Assembly (NCBI GenBank): GCA_947473805.1
Contig: CANJGB010000025.1
Span: 1 to 51,829 of the forward strand
Reading direction: 5' to 3'
Source of the DNA: Alphaproteobacteria bacterium
GTDB taxonomy: Bacteria > Pseudomonadota > Alphaproteobacteria > Ferrovibrionales > Ferrovibrionaceae
DNA: 51,829 bases
Shown here: positions 50,394-51,829 of the stretch, in pieces
Numbering within the stretch: the stretch's first letter is position 1
Layout: every line of letters starts with the position of its first letter
Notes under the pieces: generated by a model
Told to the model about the DNA's origin: nothing
Seen by the model: only the letters and a program-made list of their open reading frames with translations
Databases searched by the model: none
Made by a program: the position numbers and the translations under genes

Positions 50394-50443
50394 CGGAAAC
50401 TCCTCGTGTCTGTCGGGTTCAGGCTAGCACGGCGCGGCGCGTG

Positions 50444-51103
50444 ATGAAGCTGCTGGCAATCGATACAGCCCTTTCCGCCTGCAGCGTCGCCATCGTCGAT
50501 GGCGATACCGTGCTGGCGGCGCGGTCGGTCGTCATGGGCAGGGGCCAGGCCGAGGCGCTGATGCCCATGGTCAGCGATGCGATGGGCGCCGCCGGCCTCG
50601 CCTTTGCCGAACTCGACCTCCTCGCCGTTACTATCGGGCCCGGCAGTTTCACCGGCCTGCGCACCGGCATAGCCGCCGCCAGGGGCCTGGCTTTGGCCCT
50701 CGGCCGGCCGCTGGTCGGCGTGACGACGCTCGAGGTTCTGGCCCGTTGCGCGCGCGCGGACGAGGTGGGCGGCCGCACCATCCTTGCCGTTATCGATGCG
50801 CACCGCGGTGAGCTCTACGCGCAGCCCTTTACACACGATCTACGCCCCCTCGCGCCGCCCGCGGCGCAAAGTCCGGCAGAGGTTCTGGCCGCCGCGCCGC
50901 CCGGCCCGCTCCACCTGATTGGCAGTGGGGCGTCCCTGGCTTTTGCCATCGCGCCCGGCCGTTGCACGCTGTCGTCTGTCGCCCCGGACCCGGACCCGGC
51001 GATACTCGCCCGGCTGGCCTTGCGGCATCATCGCGCCGGTGACGCCCTCGCGGCCTCGCCCCTCTATATTCGCGCGCCCGACGCGAAGTTGCCGGCGGCG
51101 TGA
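50444..51103 (+). CDS. tsaB: tRNA threonylcarbamoyladenosine biosynthesis protein TsaB
   Basis: Partner of TsaD in making the t6A37 modification of ANN-decoding tRNAs. 219 residues with the ASKHA-fold start KLLAIDTALSACSVAI and LLAVTIGPGSFTGLRTGIAAARGLALAL, and GRTILAVIDAHRGELYAQ further on. The ATG at 50444 is used; a GTG one codon before is possible. Its stop overlaps the GTG start of rimI (GTGA). The gene order tsaB-rimI-mucR is common in related bacteria. Confidence 0.95.
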   Translation: MKLLAIDTALSACSVAIVDGDTVLAARSVVMGRGQAEALMPMVSDAMGAAGLAFAELDLLAVTIGPGSFTGLRTGIAAARGLALALGRPLVGVTTLEVLARCARADEVGGRTILAVIDAHRGELYAQPFTHDLRPLAPPAAQSPAEVLAAAPPGPLHLIGSGASLAFAIAPGRCTLSSVAPDPDPAILARLALRHHRAGDALAASPLYIRAPDAKLPAA

Positions 51104-51552
51104 CCGGCGGAATCACTTCTGTCGGCTTGCCGCACACCGCCCTGCTCGCGGCGCTGCACGGCCAGTGTTTTGACGAGGCCTGGGACGAACCGGCCATGAT
51201 CGCTCTTCTCGCCATGCCCGGCGCGTTGGCCCTGCTTGCCGCTGACGCAGCGGCGCCGGCGGGCTTTCTCCTGGGTCGTATTGCCGGCGGCGAGGGTGAA
51301 ATCCTCGCCATCGGCGTCCTGCCCGACAAGCGTCGAAGCGGCGTCGCCGCTGCACTGGTCGGGCAGTTCATCGCGGCGGCACAAGACGCGGCGAATTCAC
51401 TTTTCCTCGAAGTGGCGGCCGACAATGTCGCGGCGCGCGCGCTATATAACCGCCTCGGCTTCGTCGACGTCGGCCTGCGCAGGCAGTATTACGCCGACCG
51501 GCGTAATGCGGTTGTCATGCAGTTGACGATTTCGCCGTCGGACCCCAAGTAA
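51100..51552 (+). CDS. rimI: RimI-type GNAT N-acetyltransferase
   Basis: 150-residue acetyltransferase; RimI acetylates the N-terminal alanine of ribosomal protein S18. GNAT marks are AGFLLGRIAGGEGEILAIGVLPDKRRSGVAAALVGQF (seen as EILAIGVLPDKRRSGVAAAL, the acetyl-CoA loop) and LFLEVAADNVAARALYNRLGFVDVGLRRQYY (seen as NVAARALYNRLGF). The GTG start at 51100 overlaps the tsaB stop, so they are co-translated. No other start fits. Confidence 0.93.
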   Translation: MTGGITSVGLPHTALLAALHGQCFDEAWDEPAMIALLAMPGALALLAADAAAPAGFLLGRIAGGEGEILAIGVLPDKRRSGVAAALVGQFIAAAQDAANSLFLEVAADNVAARALYNRLGFVDVGLRRQYYADRRNAVVMQLTISPSDPK

Positions 51553-51568
51553 TAACGGGGATTTCGAC

Positions 51569-51596
51569 TTGCTGGCGGGACTCTGTCCTGTATAAC
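51569..51596 (+). promoter_or_regulatory. Promoter candidate of the interrupted mucR-type gene
   Basis: TTGCTG (51569-51574) and TATAAC (51591-51596) are 16 bp apart, starting 17 bp after the rimI stop and about 30 bp before the mucR ATG. A fair sigma-70 type pair. Confidence 0.5.
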
Positions 51597-51625
51597 CGCG
51601 CCAAGATCATTGATCGGGTATTCAC

Positions 51626-51684
51626 ATGGCCGAGAATAACCAGAGAATTGAATTGCTTTCGCTGACCGCCGAGATCGTTGCCTC
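51626..51684 (+). pseudogene. MucR/Ros-type transcriptional regulator, cut by an IS element
   Basis: Only the first 20 or so codons are present: MAENNQRIELLSLTAEIVAS, the usual N-terminus of MucR/Ros zinc-finger regulators (the family continues with HVSNN-like residues). Instead the sequence changes to the end of an IS5-family element and the frame stops at TAG 51704-51706. MucR proteins are alphaproteobacterial regulators of exopolysaccharide, motility and cell-cycle genes. The rest of the gene may lie beyond the IS, outside the window. Confidence 0.7.
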
Positions 51685-51829
51685 AGAGCCGTTCCGGAAA
51701 GTTTAGATTCCCGTTGAGTGAGTTGGCTTTGCGAGGCGCCTGAGCATGATGCGGATCATGGCGAGGCGGACGAAGGCGGCCACCTTGCGGGCATGGCGTT
51801 CGAAGTCGCGGGCAAGCCTGCGGTTGCGG
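51685..51829 (-). mobile_element. IS5-family insertion sequence, partial at window end
   Basis: The left end begins at about 51685 with GAGCCGTTCCGG, right after the interrupted mucR reading frame, and continues past the window edge. The preceding TCA fits the short TNA-type target of IS5 elements. The transposase inside reads leftward and ends 18 bp from the element's end. The exact boundary and inverted repeat cannot be confirmed without the other end. Confidence 0.75.
51703..51829 (-). CDS. IS5-family transposase, C-terminal fragment
   Basis: 41 residues of the transposase C-terminus are visible: RNRRLARDFERHARKVAAFV followed by RLAMIRIMLRRLAK, ending PTHSTGI and a TAA. The pattern NRRLA-DFE...A...RLA-IR-MLRRL is typical of the second reading frame of IS5-group DDE transposases. 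The N-terminal and catalytic parts lie beyond the window. Confidence 0.8.
   Translation of the reverse strand, partial: RNRRLARDFERHARKVAAFVRLAMIRIMLRRLAKPTHSTGI

Follow-up and report, generated by a model that had tools for sequence, protein, structure and literature searches.

An IS5-family element splits the sole detectable mucR gene of a Ferrovibrionaceae genome, probably leaving little or no MucR

Introduction

Can an alphaproteobacterium whose only recognizable mucR gene runs into an insertion sequence (IS) still make a working MucR? The question is raised by the window, i.e., the whole stretch of DNA analyzed here (51,829 nucleotides, the complete contig C25), which ends 144 bp inside an IS. 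Inactivation of regulators by IS elements is classical, and genes are commonly broken in this way. A preliminary description of the window proposed an IS5-family element within a mucR-type gene, and here we follow both the gene and the element through the draft genome and its relatives.

Results

The mucR frame opens with an ATG at 51626 (plus strand) and runs for 20 codons (MAENNQRIELLSLTAEIVAS) to 51685, where it gives way to the IS end, which continues from 51686 to the contig end at 51829. Both this switch and the leftward transposase had been recognized in the preliminary description. The last three bases of the mucR fragment, TCA (51683-51685, plus strand), are the left copy of a 3-bp target duplication whose right copy lies at C1:129-131, and the IS begins with its left terminal inverted repeat, GAGCCGTTCCGGAAAGTT (51686-51703, plus strand; right repeat at C1:111-128). 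The 144 bp of IS (51686-51829, minus strand) hold the 3' end of the transposase frame, which runs opposite to mucR and is cut by the contig end. Read into the IS, the mucR frame gains six codons (EPFRKV) before a stop, and the 5' piece encodes a 26-residue peptide. Directly 5' of mucR is a GNAT acetyltransferase gene in rimI position (51100-51552, plus strand), next to a tsaB-type gene (Pfam TsaD family; 50441-51103, plus strand) that is part of the conserved neighborhood. The good promoter candidate claimed earlier holds in part: TTGCTG-16-TATAAC can be picked out by eye at 51569-51596 (plus strand) and is not listed by a sigma-70 scan, in which the sole listed pair near mucR overlaps the start codon.

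The rest of the gene was found with a PF05443 profile search over the 58-contig, 3.31-Mb draft genome (95.34% complete, 0.45% contamination). The only match in the genome is the mucR 3' piece, C1:129-467, which aligns from profile position 12. The first 128 bp of contig C1 are the opposite IS end, and immediately after them come TCACACGTGGCC... and the rest of mucR (remnant locus L010, C1:129-494), with fur at C1:532. The preliminary description had suggested looking for the other IS end, a target duplication and the remainder of mucR beyond the window, and all three are present at the start of C1. TCA is common to the left flank (...GTTGCCTCA before the IS) and the right flank (TCACACGTGG... 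after it), and joining the flanks with TCA counted once gives a single 140-residue Ros/MucR frame without a stop. The 3' piece alone scores 149.3 bits on PF05443 (cut-off 25.4), which places it in the Ros/MucR family, and residues 56-137 of the joined protein match the Ros DNA-binding domain 2jsp with an E value of 5e-26 in a PDB sequence search. The best matches of this MucR are in metagenome-assembled genomes, Ferrovibrio sp. and others, at 60-70% identity. The join also restores the gene order tsaB-rimI-mucR-fur across C25 and C1. A rimI-like gene upstream and fur downstream were found at 62 of 100 mucR loci of other genomes (53 of 80 from the genome_contigs set and 9 of 20 from relatives), counting genes on the same strand within 1.5 kb, scoring loci cut by contig ends as misses, and taking any phmmer match at 1e-5 as rimI-like, by which other GNAT genes could be counted. 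An intact mucR joined to rimI, the arrangement that would speak for a mis-assembly, was absent from the assembly, in which the empty mucR site (33 bases, up to 3 mismatches) had 0 matches.

The sole fully assembled IS copy (C8:2-949) is 948 bp long with perfect 18-bp terminal inverted repeats. Its transposase lies in two overlapping frames, the first matching DUF4096 (PF13340, 93.5 bits), a putative transposase of the IS4/5 family, and the second DDE_Tnp_1 (PF01609, 90.3 bits). This DDE-type IS4/5 transposase, together with the matching terminal repeats and the short target duplication, places the element in the IS5 family, with IS427 and IS1031 as candidate subgroups. The transposase frames overlap around a AAAAGGGGGG run (L019:393-600, minus strand; read in the single full copy), a possible site of programmed frameshifting.

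Matches to the IS end number 16 on 15 contigs, including the copy in mucR, and two of them (C38, C9) are shorter. The 18-bp terminus occurs 31 times, in every case exactly though one mismatch was allowed (reversed control, 0), and these termini comprise 15 left and 16 right ends, so that there must be at least 16 insertions. Over the up to 145 bases compared per end, the left ends are identical, and the right ends are identical save for two, which show four differences (bases 138-143). The ends of these 16 or more insertions hardly differ, so the spread of the IS in this genome is a recent burst. The same near-identity over at most 145 bases per end gives no age resolution for dating the mucR insertion against the other copies. 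Beyond this genome, IS matches at E <=0.001, mostly short, occur in 19 of 60 relatives (61 genomes with our own), the best being a nearly complete copy in G050 (71% identity) and a 269-bp piece in G017 (85% identity).

TNA borders the IS in all 30 measurable flanks, with a C before it in 25 cases and a G in 5 (the 31st, at the left end on C8, has one flanking base only and was left out), and the mucR site is therefore a typical target. The GC content of the targets is 0.653 in the 10 bp outside the duplication, against a background of 0.656, and 0.635 against 0.665 in the outer 50 bp, where a fraction of 0.0206 of 5000 draws was as low; the background was taken from the window alone, and the two flanks of any given site are non-independent. 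At most, this is a slight AT preference. The element itself has a GC content of 66%, compared with 67% for the window; not being AT-rich, it is no obvious MucR-silenced element.

The same IS splits a second gene, which served as a positive control for joining contigs. Joining the end of C42 to the start of C8 yields a 381-aa frame with TTA on both sides (L070, C42:17268, and L051/L019, C8:2-949), which from our reading of the sequence we take to be dprA (DNA processing protein). A long Pro-Val repeat protein is likely another split gene (L068, C38:22313, and L048, C4:147236, paired by eye), and its flanks toward the IS, TTA and TAA, form a matching duplication. The IS copy at L064 (C28:126) adjoins a frame that by eye resembles another transposase, possibly an IS within an IS.

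The MucR protein was compared with 98 distinct rows, its own included, left after removal of three duplicates from 101; a script took the rows from six-frame ORFs and trimmed them according to a rule, and at least L045 is short at the N terminus. In place of the Cys-x2-Cys ... His zinc motif, this MucR and all other distinct rows have Cys-x2-Asp (98/98), a uniformity that is partly selected, as the genome_contigs loci were picked by peptide patterns covering this stretch. A Tyr stands 18 residues after the Cys in 97 of the 98 rows. The zinc site is reported to be poorly conserved in the Ros/MucR family, in which CysAspHis2 and zinc-free members (Ml proteins) exist (PMC9779718); the motif is thus not truly defining, and membership of the family rests on PF05443. 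Judged from the alignment, this group of MucR proteins may do without a zinc site of the classical type. The N-terminal hydrophobic oligomerization region is present as ELPQVI at residues 31-36 of the joined frame, i.e., 3' of the insertion, and in our own alignment by spacing its L32, V35 and I36 correspond to L36, L39 and I40 of Brucella MucR. The insertion falls within the region corresponding to the first predicted N-terminal helix.

Residue 116 is Arg in this MucR and Pro in all 97 other distinct rows and in Ros. This is the only change at positions conserved to at least 98%, a level at which 10 of the 97 other rows have as many changes or more (13 of 97 at the 90% level). Set against those rows, P116R is at most suggestive of relaxed selection on mucR before the insertion and is no proof of decay; it could possibly reflect weakened constraint or an altered function.

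The preliminary description had made the effect of the insertion depend on a second mucR. PF05443 detected no paralog in the 95.34%-complete assembly, and a search for Histone_HNS gave no match in the genome with a positive E. coli control; within the assembly, a hidden paralog or an H-NS substitute is therefore rejected. Among 17 genomes of the same family, PF05443 matched in 16 and missed one that is 72% complete; nine of the 17 gave exactly one match and seven gave two or more, counting some partial rows. Across the class sample, 44 genomes (our own included) reach at least 90% completeness with no more than 5% contamination, and 35 of them have a match. The nine without one, seven of them under 2 Mb, indicate that mucR is dispensable in some lineages, and the earlier statement that it is rarely lost was too strong. 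A mucR1 mucR2 double mutant of Sinorhizobium fredii is likewise reported to have been constructed and to grow (PMC9860058).

Discussion

Our results confirm that an IS5-family insertion splits mucR. Because contigs break at the IS repeat, the adjacency of C25 and C1 needed proof other than assembly, and this is given by the agreement of the 3-bp duplication, the restored frame, the restored synteny and the absence of an intact site. The alternative, a chimera at the repeated IS in which C25 and C1 are not neighbors and mucR is intact, draws on the fact that the repeat in which C25 and C1 both terminate occurs at least 16 times. However, besides the matching TCA, the restored frame and synteny and the missing empty site, unique sequence leads into the IS at each of the two junctions, and two contigs independently show a broken mucR. 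A mis-assembly is thus largely refuted and barely credible. The 144 bp of IS on C25 resemble the 142-148 bp at most other contig ends (the exceptions being 85, 124, 128, 184 and 239 bp and the full copy). The insertion also appears to be fixed in the assembled population or to dominate it, since an abundant intact allele would be expected to stop the contig at the junction, an argument from assembler behavior at the contig end and not a read count. The loss would be buffered if the unassembled fraction of the genome held another, intact Ros/MucR gene, which would accord with the completeness of 95.34% and with the seven same-family genomes that have two or more matches. Against this stand the nine relatives with exactly one match and our estimate that a 0.4-kb gene would be missed with a chance of about 5%, which make such a copy improbable.

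With the insertion itself settled, the likeliest outcome is a null or near-null allele, followed by a truncated active protein. We give the main reading, that the IS split of the sole detectable mucR leaves little or no MucR, a probability of roughly 0.68. The competing reading is that the insertion re-starts mucR at the GTG of codon 22, the first in-frame start of the 3' piece, three bases after TCA; the resulting MucR of 119 aa would be without most of its first helix and would still oligomerize and bind DNA. The 119-aa frame is intact with its 149.3 bits on PF05443, and it keeps the oligomerization residues L32, V35 and I36 and the DNA-binding domain. In Brucella, MucR without its first 32 residues (MucR33-142) is reported to remain decameric, while removal of 44 yields a monomer, with L36, L39 and I40 as key residues (PMC6250670), and a review quotes residues 17-47 as the minimal self-association fragment of S. 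fredii MucR (PMC9779718). The best anti-Shine-Dalgarno energy at GTG22 (-3.9; median -3.0 at 400 random positions) is no worse than that of the native ATG, although the native start scores only -3.8 and the measure therefore does not discriminate. Read-through from the native promoter into the remnant is possible because a scan found no terminator-like site in 51400-51829. Yet 948 bp of IS lie between that promoter and the remnant, the ribosome-binding site at GTG22 is weak, the scan of C1:1-600 found no promoter-like site at the right end of the IS, and Arg116 in place of an invariant Pro may itself hurt function. Together these points make an active re-started MucR unlikely. The earlier expectation of wide effects presumed a null allele, whereas the coding capacity of the remnant could still include oligomerization and DNA-binding regions.

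The sequence shows that a recently amplified 948-bp IS5-family element has entered the only mucR gene detected, behind its codon 20, duplicating TCA and separating the 3' piece from its native start and candidate promoter, with the transposase frame running the opposite way. As far as scans can tell, the right end of the IS supplies no outward sigma-70-like promoter, and GTG22 is preceded by a weak ribosome-binding site. S. fredii MucR is reported to bind AT-rich accessory DNA and down-regulate it (PMC8857273). From published work on other alphaproteobacteria, little or no MucR would mean that AT-rich genes escape H-NS-like silencing and that surface polysaccharide and motility genes escape MucR control.

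The insertion has partial parallels in known systems. Sinorhizobium meliloti Rm1021/Rm2011 carry expR102::ISRm2011-1, like here a natural IS in a regulator and reported as a fixed strain allele (PMC2848241). ExpR is described as a regulator of exopolysaccharide genes, with a link to EPS II (PMC3418255). Unlike here, ExpR is a LuxR-type quorum-sensing regulator, whereas the gene hit here encodes an H-NS-like nucleoid silencer and has no detected paralog. In Burkholderia multivorans 17616nmv, a spontaneous IS406 insertion at an hns-like gene is reported with changed exopolysaccharide and motility (PMC8231446), but IS406 lies upstream and raises expression four-fold, while here the IS splits the coding sequence. 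A third parallel is Set_ID12 of S. fredii, which like our element belongs to the IS5 family and has T/A-N-A target duplications (PMC9860058). In that study the experimenters had deleted both mucR genes, whereas in our genome a TNA-type IS5 element, alike by family and target, has itself landed in mucR. In the literature searched, to which few subscription journals belong, we found no description of a mucR gene naturally interrupted by an IS.

The S. fredii double deletion is reported to lower Set_ID12 insertion in sacB by 91% and to raise that of an IS3-family element (PMC9860058). Because insertion of an IS5-family, TNA-targeting element fell so strongly without mucR, an IS in the sole detected mucR could limit itself. 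Extended to this genome, the idea would be of a burst of a TNA-targeting IS5-family element that went on until an insertion hit mucR, whose product such elements can need to insert efficiently, braking the element and releasing AT-rich genes. Such a self-limiting burst is, by analogy with S. fredii, quite a long shot; if true, the element would have curbed its own movement while freeing silenced AT-rich genes.

The mechanism of damage is ordinary and the target is unusually interesting. MucR is a recognized H-NS-like silencer of the alphaproteobacteria that also shapes where IS elements land, and it is because such silencers influence IS landing that mucR stands out as an IS target. A natural genome in which the sole detectable mucR is split is a ready case for studying silencing, surface traits and transposition without MucR, and it also lets one ask whether an IS can limit itself.
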